Shown in pieces: positions 14,359 through 20,233 of a stretch of 64,000 bases of DNA. Each line of letters begins with the position of its first letter. The first letter of the stretch is position 1. This DNA is from Pedobacter chinensis (lineage in GTDB: Bacteria; Bacteroidota; Bacteroidia; Sphingobacteriales; Sphingobacteriaceae). Location: positions 372,001-436,000 of the forward strand of contig NZ_QPKV01000006.1 of assembly GCF_003339865.1 (NCBI RefSeq), written 5' to 3'. The notes below the pieces were generated by a model. It did no database searches and was not told the DNA's origin. It saw only the letters and a list, made by a program, of their open reading frames with translations. The position numbers and the translations under genes were made by a program.

Positions 14359-15456
14359 CTATACAACACTCACTTTATTTCTTAGAAACTGATCAGCTAA
14401 TACCAATGCCGCCATTGCTTCAACAATTACAACTGCTCTGGGTACCACACAAGGATCATGGCGACCTTTGCCTTTAATTTCAGCAGCTTCTCCGGCAGCA
14501 TTTATTGTTTGCTGATTATGCATAATGGTTGCCACCGGCTTGAATGCAACTTTAAAGGTAATATCCATTCCATTGGAAATTCCACCTAAAATTCCACCGG
14601 CATAGTTTGTAGTTGTTTTGAAAACTTTTGAATCGGCAGCTTTTGGCTGCGGAATATCGTTATGTTGCGAACCTCTCCATTCACTTCCGGCAAAGCCTGA
14701 TCCGTATTCAAAACCATGCACAGCATTAATACTTAACATTGCTTTACCTAAATCGGCATGTAATTTATCAAAAACAGGCTCGCCTAAACCTGCCGGACAA
14801 CCTTTTATCACACAACCAATTTTTCCGCCAACGGTATCGCCGTCTTTTCTGACTGAATCTATAAATTCAATCATTTCATGTGCGGTAGCAGGATCGGCGC
14901 AGCGGACGATATTTTCTTCTCTGATATTCAGTAAAGCAGACAAATCATTGCTTTCCAAATTAGGTGCTTCGATGGTACCAACTGAGGTAACATGAGCGAA
15001 AATTTCAATGCCCTGTTGCTTTAAGAATAATTTAGCAATGGCGCCTGCGGCTACACGGGCAGCAGTTTCACGAGCTGATGAGCGACCACCGCCACGATGA
15101 TCGCGAATGCCGTATTTTGCATCGTAAACGTAATCGGCATGACTCGGACGGTAAACATCAACATTATGGCCATAGTCTTTCGAACGCTGATCTTCGTTTG
15201 GAATCAATAAAGCAATTGGTGTTCCTGTACTTTTTCCCTCAAAAACACCAGATAAGATTTGAACCGTATCGCTTTCTTTTCTTTGTGTGGTAATTTTCGA
15301 TTGACCTGGCTTACGCTTATCCAATTCTGATTGAATAAAATCCATGTCGATATCCAGCTGTGCCGGACAGCCATCAATAATTACACCAATAGCTACGCCG
15401 TGAGATTCGCCAAAAGTGGTAATGCGAAATAGTTGTCCGAATGAGTTGCCTGCCAT
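14359..15456 (-). CDS. aroC: chorismate synthase
   Basis: 365 residues, the usual length. It converts 5-enolpyruvylshikimate-3-phosphate to chorismate with reduced FMN, the last step of the shikimate pathway. Hallmarks: [40 protein letters not shown] followed by [16 protein letters not shown], and [20 protein letters not shown]. It is last in a minus-strand aromatic cluster (pheA, DAHP synthase/chorismate mutase, aroA, aroC). The 115-bp gap to aroA holds a low-complexity repeat. Confidence 0.98.
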
Positions 15457-15571: not shown

Positions 15572-16861
15572 TCATATCTCCTTTACTTCAAATCCTGCTT
15601 TTTTCAAATCTTCCCAAAAATAAGGATAAGATTTTTCAACTACCTGCATTTCTTCAATTTCTACTTCATTGATTAATAATGCAAGTGGGGCAAAAGCCAT
15701 GGCCATACGATGATCCTCGTAAGTGGCAATGGTGATTTTTTCAGGGAAATGAAGTTTATCGGTATTTAAAGTATAAATCAAATTATCTTCAGTTAAAGTA
15801 ACACCGATTTTTGCGAGCTCATTTTGTAAAGCCTTGATTCGGTCAGTTTCTTTTATTTTTAAAGTTTCCAAACCCGTGAACGACATGTTTTTACCTAATA
15901 CAGCTGCAATAACCACAATGGTTTGTGCCAAATCAGGGCAGGTTTTTAAATCTAAAACCCGGTTGGTTTCTAATAATAAGCCTAAATTGCTGATTGAAAT
16001 TCCTGTTTCACTTTTGCTGGTTGCAATTCCGAAAATCTTCATGATTTTCTGGATTTGACTATCTCCTTGCAGGCTTTTTTCTTTCAGGGCCGGTAAGCTG
16101 ATTTCGGCCTCACCTGCTAAAGCTGCAATGCTATACCAATAAGATGCTGCGCTCCAATCCGGCTCGACAACTAATGTTCCTGCCTTAAATGCTTGTGGCT
16201 TAATCGAAATTGAATTTCCATTCCAGGAATGTTCAATGCCAACTTCTGCCAGCATATCCAAAGTCATATCTACATACGGCTTAGAAGTTAGCTCGCCTTC
16301 AATTTCCAAAGTTAAGCCTTGTGGCAGGATAGGTGCAATCATCAGTAATGCTGAAATGTATTGACTACTCACATCGCCTTTGATTTTAACCTGAGCAGCT
16401 TTTTGATTCAACGGGCCGATAATATTTAATGGCGGGAAACCATTTGTTTCTGTATAAGTGATATCTGCACCAATGGTTTTTAAAGCCTCAGCCAAAATCC
16501 CAATCGGGCGTTGTTTCATACGTTCGGTTCCGGTTAATAGAAAGTTTCCGTTTTTAGCAGAAAGATAGGCAGAAAGAAAACGCATGGCCGTTCCCGCAGG
16601 ACCAACATCAACAAGTTTTGAGTTTTGAGTTTTGAGTTTTGAGTTTTCTCCCAACTCATTGCTCTCAACTCCCAACTTGTTAAGGATCCCATCAAGTGTA
16701 ACAGTATCGGCGGCATTTGATAAGTTTTCTACTTTAACCAGTTTATTGCTTAAAGCGCTGATAATTAATGCCCTGTTGCATTCGCTTTTTGAGCCTGTTA
16801 ATTGAATTTCCGTATTAATATTCCTGGTTCCTTTAAAAGAAACTAAGGCATTTTTTGACAT
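15572..16861 (-). CDS. aroA: 3-phosphoshikimate 1-carboxyvinyltransferase (EPSP synthase)
   Basis: About 429 residues from the ATG at 16859-16861 (MSKNALVSFKG). A longer in-frame start at 16936 is rejected because it lies in a repeat. The enzyme joins shikimate-3-phosphate and PEP. Hallmarks: LTGSKSECNRALI, VDVGPAGTAMRFLSAYLS, KGDVSSQYISALLM, PDWSAASYW, IKETDRIKALQNEL and YEDHRMAMAFAPLAL. A variable loop just before VDVGPAGTAMR contains an inserted repeat-derived segment (KLKTQNSKL). Both sides of the active site are intact, so it is probably functional. Confidence 0.96.
   Translation of the reverse strand: MSKNALVSFKGTRNINTEIQLTGSKSECNRALIISALSNKLVKVENLSNAADTVTLDGILNKLGVESNELGENSKLKTQNSKLVDVGPAGTAMRFLSAYLSAKNGNFLLTGTERMKQRPIGILAEALKTIGADITYTETNGFPPLNIIGPLNQKAAQVKIKGDVSSQYISALLMIAPILPQGLTLEIEGELTSKPYVDMTLDMLAEVGIEHSWNGNSISIKPQAFKAGTLVVEPDWSAASYWYSIAALAGEAEISLPALKEKSLQGDSQIQKIMKIFGIATSKSETGISISNLGLLLETNRVLDLKTCPDLAQTIVVIAAVLGKNMSFTGLETLKIKETDRIKALQNELAKIGVTLTEDNLIYTLNTDKLHFPEKITIATYEDHRMAMAFAPLALLINEVEIEEMQVVEKSYPYFWEDLKKAGFEVKEI
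16614..16647. repeat. 7-bp tandem repeat inside aroA
   Basis: Nearly five head-to-tail copies of AGTTTTG (minus strand CAAAACT) lie inside the aroA coding region, followed by a diverged AT-rich stretch. Because 7 x 3 = 21, the repeat translates as a seven-residue periodic peptide (LKTQNSK) and stays in frame only for certain copy numbers. It maps to a surface-loop position between two conserved blocks. Confidence 0.85.
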
Positions 16862-16898
16862 TTTATTCTGTTTTTTATGCTTAATGAGTTGTTTAAAA

Positions 16899-16974
16899 GC
16901 TGTCATGTTGAGTCCGTCGAAACTAGATTCTTCCACATTTTGGGTTCAGTGCAGACTGAGCTCAGAATGACAGC
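16899..16974. repeat. REP-like palindromic element upstream of aroA
   Basis: GCTGTCATGTTGAG at 16899-16912 and CTCAGAATGACAGC at 16961-16974 are imperfect inverted repeats (two mismatches) about 75 bp end to end. Elements with this arrangement are common in Sphingobacteriaceae intergenic regions (from memory). It fills part of the gap between the DAHP synthase gene and aroA. Confidence 0.65.
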
Positions 16975-17130: not shown

Positions 17131-18270
17131 CTACGCTTTAACTTCGTTATGTTGTTCGGCGGCAATTCCTTTCTCAGCCTTACCAGCATTCATAATTTCA
17201 GTTTGTTTACGGATAGATTCGCCGTGCATTAATTCTAAGAATTTCTCCGTAAAGTTCAAGTCTAACTTTAGAGCTTTTGCAAATGCATGACCTTTTTTAA
17301 TAATGGCATCCCAGCGGTTAACCTGTAAAATAGTTACCTGATTATCACGTTTGAACTCGCCGATTTTTTCAACGATAGCCATACGCTCGCCTAATTTTTG
17401 CAATAAGATATCATCAATTTTATCAATTGATTTACGTAAATCGGCTAGTTTATCTGCAAAAGCTTCGTTTGGTGCTTCAGGCTCACGAACCGTTAAGCGG
17501 TCAACCAATTCTGCCAAAGCAGCTGGTGTAACTTGTTGTTTAGCATCTGTCCATGCAACAGAAGGATCAACATGAGATTCGATCATTAAACCCTGCATAT
17601 CTAAATCCAAAGCTTTTTGAGAGATATAAGGAATTAACTCGCGGTTACCACAAATGTGACTTGGATCGTTAATGATTGGCAATTCAGGGCATAAAGTTTT
17701 TAGTTGGATAGCAAGTTCCCACATCGGTTCGTTGCGGAAAGAGCTTTTCTCAAAAGAAGAAAAACCACGGTGGATAGCACCAATCTTAGTAATTCCTGCA
17801 CCGTTGATCCGCTCGATTGCACCAATCCATAATTGTAAATCAGGATTTACAGGGTTTTTAATTAAAACAGGAACATCATGTCCTTTCAAAGCATCAGCAA
17901 TTTCCTGTACCGTGAATGGGTTTACAGTAGAACGTGCGCCAATCCAAAGGATATCAACACCTGCGGCCAAAGCCTCTTCAACATGTTTCGCATTTGCAAC
18001 CTCAACAGCTATTGGTAAACCAGTTTCTGCTTTAGCACGTTTTAACCACTCTAAACCAATGCTTCCGATACCCTCAAATTCTCCCGGGCGGGTACGTGGC
18101 TTCCAGATACCAGCTCTTAAAACTGATATCTTACCAGTTGCAGCTAGTAAATGTGCTGTGGTTAATAATTGTTCTTCGGTTTCTGCACTGCAGGGGCCGG
18201 AAATTAACAATGGTTCGTTGTTTGTGTTTAACCAGGTGTTTAAAGGTTGAATGTTTAAATTAAGTTTCAT
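17131..18270 (-). CDS. bifunctional 3-deoxy-7-phosphoheptulonate synthase / chorismate mutase type II
   Basis: 379 residues. Residues about 1-260 form a DAHP synthase: LLISGPCSAETEEQLL, SVLRAGIWKPRTRPGEFEG, IGARSTVNPFTVQEI, PVLIKNPVNPD, GAIHRGFSS and NDPSHICGNRE. The C-terminal ~95 residues are an AroQ-type chorismate mutase (LADLRKSIDKIDDILLQKLG, RMAIVEKIGEFK, LMHGESIRKQ). It catalyses the first step of the shikimate pathway and chorismate to prephenate. It is downstream of pheA across a 165-bp repeat-rich gap, so cotranscription and hence pheA attenuator control are possible but unproven. Confidence 0.96.
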   Translation of the reverse strand: MKLNLNIQPLNTWLNTNNEPLLISGPCSAETEEQLLTTAHLLAATGKISVLRAGIWKPRTRPGEFEGIGSIGLEWLKRAKAETGLPIAVEVANAKHVEEALAAGVDILWIGARSTVNPFTVQEIADALKGHDVPVLIKNPVNPDLQLWIGAIERINGAGITKIGAIHRGFSSFEKSSFRNEPMWELAIQLKTLCPELPIINDPSHICGNRELIPYISQKALDLDMQGLMIESHVDPSVAWTDAKQQVTPAALAELVDRLTVREPEAPNEAFADKLADLRKSIDKIDDILLQKLGERMAIVEKIGEFKRDNQVTILQVNRWDAIIKKGHAFAKALKLDLNFTEKFLELMHGESIRKQTEIMNAGKAEKGIAAEQHNEVKA

Positions 18271-18435: not shown

Positions 18436-19269
18436 TTACACTTTATCATTCTTTTGATACTCGCCTAAGATGTTAAAATTTGAAGTGTATTTTAATGCTT
18501 TTCTTACGGCTTTATCATACTTTTCTGTGCTGGGCCATTCTAAATCGACATAAAAATAATATTCGTTTCTTTTCCCTAACACCGGCATTGATTGTATTTT
18601 TGTTAAGCTTACTTCCTGCTCGGCAAAGATGTTTAATACCGTTGCCAACGAGCCTGCTTTGTGACCAACCTGAAAACAGATCGAGGCTTTATTGATTTTC
18701 TTACCTTCATCTGTTTTGTCTTTTTTAAGAATAAGAAAACGGGTATAGTTTTTTTTGTTGGATTCTACGCGGCGCTCTAAAATGTTTAAACCATAAAGAT
18801 CTGCAGCTAAGTTGTTTGCAATGGCCATAGTATCTGTTAGCTTTTCTTCCTGAATACGCTTGGCACAAGCAGCAGTATCATTGCTTTCCACGATTTTAAT
18901 GTGCGGATAATCATAAAAGAAATCGATACATTGACGGATCGCAATGGGGTGGGAGGTTACGATTTTGATATCCTCAAATTTTACACCCGGTAGGGCCATT
19001 AAATGTAGCTGAATAGGTAAGTAAACTTCTCCAACTACCGAGAAACCATAATCGCGAATTAAAGTATAGTTTGGCAATAAGCTACCGGCGATTGAGTTTT
19101 CGATAGCCATTACCACAAAATCAGCCTCATTTTTCTCCAGTTTATCGCAGGTTTCTTTAAATGAATTACATTCTACAGTTTCGATGTTTTTACCAAAGAA
19201 TTTGTAGGCCGCTTCTTCATGAAAGGATGCTTTGATACCTTGAATTGCTACTCGTTTTGTCGTTTCCAT
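18436..19269 (-). CDS. pheA: prephenate dehydratase
   Basis: 277 residues from the ATG at 19267-19269 (METTKRVAIQG). It converts prephenate to phenylpyruvate, committing to phenylalanine. The dehydratase domain (about 1-185) has FHEEAAYKFFG, MAIENSIAGSLLPNY and the catalytic TRFLIL. A C-terminal ACT domain (about 195-275) would bind phenylalanine, although the usual ESRP motif reads QSMP here. A longer frame opening at 19320 (MYKKSRQTAG) is rejected because it reads through the attenuator terminator. Upstream lies a complete Phe/Tyr leader attenuator. Confidence 0.96.
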   Translation of the reverse strand: METTKRVAIQGIKASFHEEAAYKFFGKNIETVECNSFKETCDKLEKNEADFVVMAIENSIAGSLLPNYTLIRDYGFSVVGEVYLPIQLHLMALPGVKFEDIKIVTSHPIAIRQCIDFFYDYPHIKIVESNDTAACAKRIQEEKLTDTMAIANNLAADLYGLNILERRVESNKKNYTRFLILKKDKTDEGKKINKASICFQVGHKAGSLATVLNIFAEQEVSLTKIQSMPVLGKRNEYYFYVDLEWPSTEKYDKAVRKALKYTSNFNILGEYQKNDKV

Positions 19270-19283
19270 TTTTGTGTAAAACA

Positions 19284-19314
19284 AAAAAGTCCCGGCTGTT
19301 TGCCGGGACTTTTT
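19284..19314 (-). terminator. pheA attenuator: intrinsic terminator hairpin
   Basis: A 13-bp perfect stem, 19284-19296 with 19302-19314 (core AGTCCCGGC / GCCGGGACT), has a 5-nt loop. On the minus strand a U6 run ends it. It lies between the leader peptide and pheA, ending 13 nt before the pheA ATG. Formed in the nascent RNA it would stop transcription before pheA; its 5' arm can pair instead with the end of the leader reading frame. Confidence 0.88.
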
Positions 19315-19359
19315 ATACATTTAATATTGTTATATATTTTTTTGCATATTAGCCCCGGC
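19302..19359 (-). promoter_or_regulatory. pheA attenuator: antiterminator pairing
   Basis: The minus-strand segment GCCGGGGCT at 19351-19359, which contains the last codons and the stop of the leader peptide, is complementary over all nine positions (one G-U) to the terminator 5' arm AGTCCCGGC (19302-19310). A ribosome stalled on the upstream Phe/Tyr codons would leave this segment free to pair and block the terminator. A ribosome at the stop codon would cover it and let the terminator form. Confidence 0.8.
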
Positions 19360-19411
19360 TCTTACTAAAAAAGTAAAAGTAACCAAAGTAATATGTGTTG
19401 AATAATTTCAT
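19349..19411 (-). CDS. Phe/Tyr-rich leader peptide of the pheA attenuator
   Basis: A 20-residue frame, MKLFNTYYFGYFYFFSKSRG, then TAA at 19349-19351. Nine of 20 codons are Phe (five) or Tyr (four), clustered at positions 4-15, as in PheL-type leaders of other bacteria. It starts about 19 nt after the end of a predicted -7 element, and its stop overlaps the antiterminator segment. The product is a regulatory peptide with no function of its own: low charged tRNA-Phe or tRNA-Tyr stalls the ribosome and keeps pheA on. Too short for normal ORF calling. Confidence 0.85.
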   Translation of the reverse strand: MKLFNTYYFGYFYFFSKSRG

Positions 19412-19429
19412 TTTCGTTTTTGAATGAGC

Positions 19430-19459
19430 CAAATGTAATAACAAAATTTAATTTGTCAA
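19430..19459 (-). promoter_or_regulatory. predicted pheA leader promoter (TTG-N19-TACATTTG)
   Basis: -7 element TACATTTG at 19430-19437 and -33 TTG at 19457-19459 on the minus strand, 19-bp spacer, fitting the Bacteroidota consensus TTG-N19-21-TAnnTTTG. The start site would fall near 19424, leaving a 5' leader of roughly a dozen nucleotides before the leader peptide. Confidence 0.7.
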
Positions 19460-19663: not shown

Positions 19664-19690
19664 CCCCCGCTGGCGGGGGATTAAAGGGGG
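19664..19690. repeat. G-rich hairpin end, downstream side of the DUF559 gene
   Basis: CCCCCGC-TG-GCGGGGG (7-bp stem, 19664-19679) is followed by GGGGG at 19686-19690. The gene's TAA stop (19681-19683) lies inside this element. It is an inverted counterpart of the repeat at 20116-20140. Confidence 0.75.
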
Positions 19691-20082
19691 TGGCTCTTTT
19701 CAAATTCTTCAATATAAAAACAAATGGAACGATTTACATTTTCCAAATCTGTCAGAACTTCCTCATCACTAAAACGAATTATAGTAAAACCAATTTCAGA
19801 AAGTATTTTTTCTCTTAAAATATCTTTTTCAGCTACTGTTTCCCATTGATGTGTTAAACCGTCAATTTCAATAATTAACATTAGGTCTTTACACATGAAA
19901 TCGGCAATAAAATTTAGTATAGGTCTTTGTCTTCGAAATGAATAACCCATCATTTGTTTGCTGCTTAAAAGAAATTTCCAGATACAGGCCTCGGCTTTGG
20001 TCATGTTCTTTCTGTTTGTATTTGCAAATGCTGTTAAATTGCTATTATAGTGCCAAAGGTTTTCTTTCTTAGCTTTTTCCAT
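19681..20082 (-). CDS. DUF559 endonuclease-like protein
   Basis: 133 residues from the ATG at 20080-20082 (MEKAKKENLWHYN). The earlier in-frame start at 20154 reads through a G-rich repeat and is rejected. It matches DUF559, a Vsr-like PD-(D/E)XK fold: MTKAEACIWKFLLSSKQMMG, YSFRRQRPILNFIADFMC with the metal-binding Asp, LMLIIEIDGLTHQW with the E-x-D core, and LSEIGFTIIRFSDEEVL. It is flanked by inverted hairpin-plus-G5 elements at 19664 and 20116, and sits between the pheA attenuator and a sterol-desaturase-family gene. Probably a small mobile or selfish gene; biochemical role unknown. Confidence 0.9.
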   Translation of the reverse strand: MEKAKKENLWHYNSNLTAFANTNRKNMTKAEACIWKFLLSSKQMMGYSFRRQRPILNFIADFMCKDLMLIIEIDGLTHQWETVAEKDILREKILSEIGFTIIRFSDEEVLTDLENVNRSICFYIEEFEKSHPL

Positions 20083-20115
20083 GATTCTAAAATAAAAAAT
20101 ATTTACAATAATCCT

Positions 20116-20140
20116 CCCCCTTGCCCCCTCGAAGAGGGGG
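20116..20140. repeat. G-rich hairpin end, upstream side of the DUF559 gene
   Basis: CCCCC (20116-20120), then CCCCCTC-GAA-GAGGGGG (7-bp stem, 20124-20140). Read on the opposite strand it has the same order as the left copy at 19664: hairpin of C5/G5, short spacer, then another G5. The pair therefore brackets the DUF559 gene as inverted repeats about 475 bp apart. Confidence 0.75.
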
Positions 20141-20233
20141 ATAACACAGTGCAAAAAAAATCCCTCAAATTTTCTTTATAAATAAAAAACGGCCTGTAAG
20201 TACAGACCGAAATTTATGATTTTGCCACTTGCC

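Follow-up and report, generated by a model that had tools for sequence, protein, structure and literature searches.

The whole stretch of Pedobacter chinensis DNA analysed here (64,000 nucleotides, henceforth the window) carries on its minus strand a series of aromatic-pathway genes, the first of which is pheA (18436-19269), encoding a 277-aa prephenate dehydratase (PF00800, E 8.5e-56) that shares as much as 99% identity with proteins of Pedobacter. It is followed by a gene for DAHP synthase/chorismate mutase (17131-18270; PF00793 and PF01817), by aroA (EPSP synthase, 15572-16936; TIGR01356), whose start codon is uncertain, and by aroC (chorismate synthase, 14359-15456; TIGR00033). The same gene order recurs in another genus (L246). 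No strong terminator was found between these genes, and with a gap of 165 nt behind pheA, the DAHP synthase/chorismate mutase gene, together with aroA-aroC, probably shares the pheA transcript. A small DUF559-type protein is encoded on the same strand 5' of the pheA promoter (window 19681-20154).

Direct reading of the minus strand from 19459 to 19284 reveals a Bacteroidota promoter, a leader, an anti-terminator segment, and a terminator, in that order, before pheA. The predicted promoter (19430-19459), TTG-N19-TACATTTG, consists of TTG at 19459-19457, a 19-nt spacer, and TACATTTG at 19437-19430. A two-part promoter of the form TTG-N18-20-TAnnTTTG lies 5' of 100 of the 109 Sphingobacteriaceae leaders, and the -7 motif TAnnTTTG is found at most 45 nt from the leader start in 102 of the 109 cases, compared with 2% in shuffled sequence. 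The leader peptide ORF (19349-19411; ATG at 19411, stop codon TAA at 19351-19349) encodes MKLFNTYYFGYFYFFSKSRG in 20 codons, among which are five Phe (codons 4, 9, 12, 14, and 15) and four Tyr (codons 7, 8, 11, and 13) control codons. Its final codons and the first base of the stop constitute segment 2 (GCCGGGGCU, 19351-19359), the 5' strand of the anti-terminator. Segment 3 (AGUCCCGGC, 19302-19310) has two alternative partners, segments 2 and 4; GCCGGGGCT (19359-19351) is complementary to AGTCCCGGC (19310-19302) over 9 bp, including one G-U. Segments 3 and 4 form the intrinsic terminator hairpin (19284-19314), which has 13 bp, a 5-nt loop, and a U6 tract at 19288-19283, and which is situated, as in a classical attenuator, between the leader and the structural gene.

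The original prediction, which had listed the promoter with its 19-nt spacer, the 20-codon leader with five Phe and four Tyr codons, the 9-nt pairing between the leader end and the 5' arm of the terminator, and the 13-bp terminator with U6, was thus accurate in each of these respects. Its sole numerical slip concerned the distance from the end of the terminator stem to the pheA ATG (19269), which is 14 nt rather than 13 nt. All the parts it named are present, but it overlooked the third classical element, the 1:2 hairpin, exposed by folding, in which the Tyr/Phe codons of segment 1 (19372-19395) pair with 19366-19345; this hairpin therefore overlaps the control codons. The fold of the leader RNA is far more stable than expected (z = -6.7), and none of 200 shuffles was equally good. 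The original prediction had also pointed to a long pheA start at 19320. Such a start does exist; however, an in-frame start 5' of the hairpin is found in only 13 of 78 Pedobacter loci, and 19320 is thus not a conserved start and was rejected as the true one.

The leader is present in all 80 Pedobacter loci, with peptides resembling TY[YW]FGYFY[YF]FSKSR[GDQ], and a recognised terminator accompanies it in nearly all of them. Several features suggest that the leader is translated in its proposed frame. Its stop codon is always kept yet is variable within the family (TAA in 76, TGA in 21, and TAG in 12 cases), alignment gaps within the leader are mostly three bases long, and pN/pS is 0.49 in frame, compared with 1.94 in frame +1 and 0.63 in the other frame. 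Thus, 9 of 20 codons of this short ORF specify Phe or Tyr, clustered as in a classical leader, and the frame is under selection. A small RNA whose terminator happens to lie close to the start of a gene can resemble this arrangement, and several sRNA families match weakly here, so that the terminator might be constitutive or belong to an unrelated small RNA, with the leader as a chance ORF. The conserved frame, the three-way pairing described below, and the absence of comparable arrangements from 1750 shuffled sequences refute this explanation, to which we give virtually no weight.

Within the Sphingobacteriaceae, the core of the peptide, YFGYFYYFSKSR, is near-invariant, as might be expected if the nascent leader were an arrest peptide, with an aromatic ligand in the ribosomal tunnel as its signal instead of the charging of tRNA. 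However, much of this invariance is accounted for by base pairing, and across families the richness in Phe, Tyr, and Trp is conserved whereas the sequence is not. Furthermore, in several genera the leader is shortened (FGYFYYYQ or FGYFYYFR, followed by a stop codon), and the SKSR tail is gone from the peptide while the RNA of segment 2 is retained 3' of the stop. Since segment 2 RNA outlives the peptide tail, it can be argued that the RNA, and not the tail, is the object of selection. Arrest-peptide sensing is accordingly regarded as very improbable.

All three stems show compensatory change. In an alignment of 52 distinct family members, the terminator (3:4) is 96% paired, with two-sided changes in 8 of 13 pairs; the anti-terminator (2:3) is likewise 96% paired, with two-sided changes in 2 of 9 pairs; and the 1:2 helix is 94% paired, with two-sided changes in 7 of 21 pairs. 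It should be noted that covariation of 2:3 within the family is modest, as its two two-sided pairs were matched by 125 of 500 shuffles. In one Pedobacter group (L103, L106, and L111), the leader codon CGG has changed to CAG, and the two terminator arms have changed with it (CCCGG to CCTGG and CCGGG to CCAGG), which preserves both alternative stems. Across families, the three segments co-vary and retain their complementarity, for example as CGAGACCT/AGGTCTCG in L177 and GGAGGCGGGA/TCCCGCCTCC in L183. The 2:3 anti-terminator and the 3:4 terminator are thus mutually exclusive structures, as in classical attenuators. The comparison with relatives that had been proposed as a check therefore came out in favour of the prediction: relatives keep the leader frame and its Phe/Tyr codons as well as the two alternative stems, and compensatory changes are present.

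A structured 5' UTR with a terminator before an amino-acid gene could also harbour a metabolite-binding riboswitch or a T-box that controls the terminator. However, no T-box or amino-acid riboswitch covariance model of Rfam matched the 5' UTR at gathering scores; only tmRNA and tRNA reach this level in the window. Conserved sequence is confined to the leader and the three segments, and the spacer between stop and terminator is free to vary. A riboswitch or T-box thus appears even less probable than an arrest peptide. Matches to STnc370, STnc430, and other sRNA entries of Rfam were also considered and set aside, as they fall below gathering and reflect the terminator.

With all parts in order, and with conservation and compensatory changes in relatives, it is very probable that the element is a classical ribosome-mediated transcription attenuator of pheA. 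Polymerase would initiate just 3' of TACATTTG, and a ribosome would enter the 20-codon leader. When Phe-tRNA (and probably Tyr-tRNA) is ample, the ribosome would reach the stop codon and occlude segment 2, so that the 3:4 terminator could form and transcription would stop near 19283. When charged tRNA is scarce, the ribosome would stall at a Phe or Tyr codon and occlude segment 1; segment 2 would then pair with segment 3, the terminator would be pre-empted, and transcription would read through into pheA and probably also into DAHP synthase-aroA-aroC. Without translation, the 1:2 hairpin may sequester segment 2 and favour termination.

The positions of the control codons fit this attenuation scheme. 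When the nascent RNA was folded with a ribosome-sized stretch masked, the anti-terminator formed with a probability of 0.97 or more for every A-site position from codon 4 to codon 14. The value was 0.66 when codon 15, the final Phe, occupied the A site, fell to 0.16 for codon 16, and was 0 from codon 17 to the stop. Because this probability drops after codon 15, the aromatic codons end exactly where stalling ceases to help. In 40 relatives, the folding model allows the anti-terminator at 322 of 331 aromatic codons (97%) but at only 1 of 40 stop codons, and in other families (n = 25) at 205 of 228 aromatic codons versus 8 of 25 stop codons. In this model, then, stalls free segment 2 and a ribosome at the stop covers it, which is the behaviour of a classical attenuator. 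At equilibrium, the terminator always wins on the full-length RNA, and the model therefore relies on the co-transcriptional order of events. On truncated RNA without a ribosome, 2:3 is preferred over 1:2 at equilibrium, and thus the outcome without translation is uncertain.

To follow the element beyond the genus, 175 pheA upstream regions from the family, class, and phylum were scanned for a three-part signature: a 10- to 36-codon ORF in which Phe, Tyr, and Trp together make up 30% or more, a terminator at most 110 nt away, and a near-stop segment complementary to the 5' arm of that terminator. Dinucleotide shuffles (n = 1,750) served as the control. The signature was found in 134 of the 175 Bacteroidota regions and in 0 of 1750 shuffles. 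When 731 ORFs from the window and from the 80 Pedobacter loci were screened, all 66 matches preceded pheA, and none preceded any other gene. Approximately one quarter of the sampled pheA genes are without the signature, in some cases owing to the strict thresholds and in others truly (family f43, L237); many of the negative regions keep an aromatic leader or have a terminator marginally under the threshold. Some loci have tandem units within 400 nt 5' of pheA, i.e., two aromatic leaders, each with its own terminator (L205 and L235; probably also L209 and L230), and in L205 and L235 each unit possesses a complementary anti-terminator segment. It thus appears that the same switch precedes pheA in most of Bacteroidota and has apparently been described only in outline before.

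Which amino acids the leader senses can be approached from its codons and from the genes nearby. Phe and Tyr both occur in all 134 leaders, and Trp in 55 of them (approx. 40%); Tyr is the commonest residue (21%, compared with 18% for Phe). In many relatives, tyrA lies slightly 3' of pheA, and in several families immediately so (e.g., the f4 member L244, in which the order is pheA, aminotransferase, tyrA, and DAHP synthase/chorismate mutase), whereas in Pedobacter it does not. The apparent tyrA of Pedobacter, located on a different contig from the pheA operon, encodes a divergent 418-aa prephenate dehydrogenase-like protein (L238:1342-2598) that has a weak PF02153 match and falls short of the curated cut-offs of the bacterial models. 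The genome also encodes a 592-aa aromatic amino acid hydroxylase (C18, L249:474-2252; PRK14056, 812 bits). The idea that Pedobacter has no tyrA and makes Tyr from Phe by means of a hydroxylase was dropped in that form, as the weak PF02153 match represents a divergent prephenate dehydrogenase. Hydroxylase-related genes are also present in relatives that have no strong PDH_N match.

Within this context, it is very likely that the leader senses Phe, and, judging from its codons, sensing of Tyr is plausible. With both codons in all leaders, tyrA near pheA in many relatives (if not in Pedobacter), and a hydroxylase present, it is reasonable, albeit unproven, to assume that Tyr is sensed as well. 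The element might also be the proposed attenuator but respond to Phe only, with the Tyr (and Trp) codons as passengers kept by RNA pairing or slow translation. The Tyr codons do form part of the 1:2 stem, so that pairing restricts their bases; the Pedobacter operon is without tyrA; and the aroR attenuator of Corynebacterium glutamicum, the nearest known case, whose Phe-Tyr-Phe leader precedes a DAHP synthase gene, is reported to answer Phe limitation and not Tyr availability (PMC11802643). However, Phe and Tyr occur together, with Tyr the commoner, even where the sequences of families are unrelated, tyrA directly follows pheA in several families, and the anti-termination zone holds Tyr codons as well as Phe codons. 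Phe-only sensing thus seems somewhat unlikely. A broader alternative, plausible although somewhat less likely than not, is an attenuator that responds to any aromatic amino acid throughout the phylum, in which charging of Phe-tRNA, Tyr-tRNA, and, in approx. 40% of the leaders found, Trp-tRNA would jointly control entry into pheA and the genes that follow, and in which tandem units would constitute a double gate in some lineages.

Leader-peptide attenuation is a textbook mechanism, known chiefly from Proteobacteria and Actinobacteria; in their 2004 survey, Vitreschak and colleagues reportedly predicted some attenuators in Bacteroidetes as well. The Pedobacter element resembles the E. coli pheL attenuator in having a leader with Phe codons, alternative hairpins, and a terminator before a prephenate dehydratase gene. 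However, the E. coli pheA leader is rich in Phe, whereas the leaders described here mix Tyr and Phe and often include Trp; in addition, pheA in the window has no chorismate mutase domain and lies 5' of DAHP synthase, aroA, and aroC. Nor does the element belong to the Rfam family Phe_leader (RF01859), against which it scores 27.0 bits (E 0.013), compared with a gathering score of 55. The thrL and ilvL leaders of enterobacteria each monitor more than one amino acid from a branched pathway, but they use Thr/Ile and Ile/Val/Leu codons, respectively, whereas the pheA leader is aromatic.

The C. glutamicum aroR attenuator, which controls the aroF (DAHP synthase) operon (Neshat et al. 2014, via PMC11802643), is similar in its leader with Phe and Tyr codons, in ribosome stalling, and in its aromatic-pathway operon; it differs in phylum, in the first gene, and in having only Phe-Tyr-Phe. 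Phylum and gene are both shared with a conserved structured element, without an Rfam match, in the pheA 5' region of Flavobacterium psychrophilum and further Flavobacteriaceae. The 2021 study that described it (PMC9723704) also reported strong indications that amino-acid operons are preceded by leader-peptide attenuators; its main text gives no leader sequence, codons, pairing, or spread past Flavobacteriaceae. Another candidate cis-regulatory RNA of Bacteroidetes, the trp-named Bacteroid-trp motif (RF01692; PMC2864571), matched neither the window nor the examined loci that carry the attenuator. The mechanism is thus known and classical; what is new is its complete anatomy, together with compensation among the three pairings, occurrence across the phylum, frequent Trp codons, and tandem copies.

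Other leaders were observed in the same genome. A Trp attenuator lies before trpE (C22, L239), with the leader MINNIHTWLWQGNSKQNCAGCV starting 240 nt 5' of the trpE match, followed by the terminator GCCCGGCG..CGCCGGGC, and without an Rfam match. A His-rich leader, MKLTLNHHLHLHHRR, is located 276 nt 5' of the hisG match (C16, L247, reverse strand); no G+C-rich intrinsic terminator is evident after it, and its mechanism may therefore differ.

Bacteroidota are known for translation that is poor in Shine-Dalgarno sequences. The leader of pheA is intergenic and is passed over by gene callers, and the analysis supplies testable predictions for a group in which data on RNA regulation are sparse. Conservation and compensatory change make attenuation of pheA a standing feature of Bacteroidota that is absent from Rfam, and the element suggests a ready-made control element responsive to aromatic amino acids.
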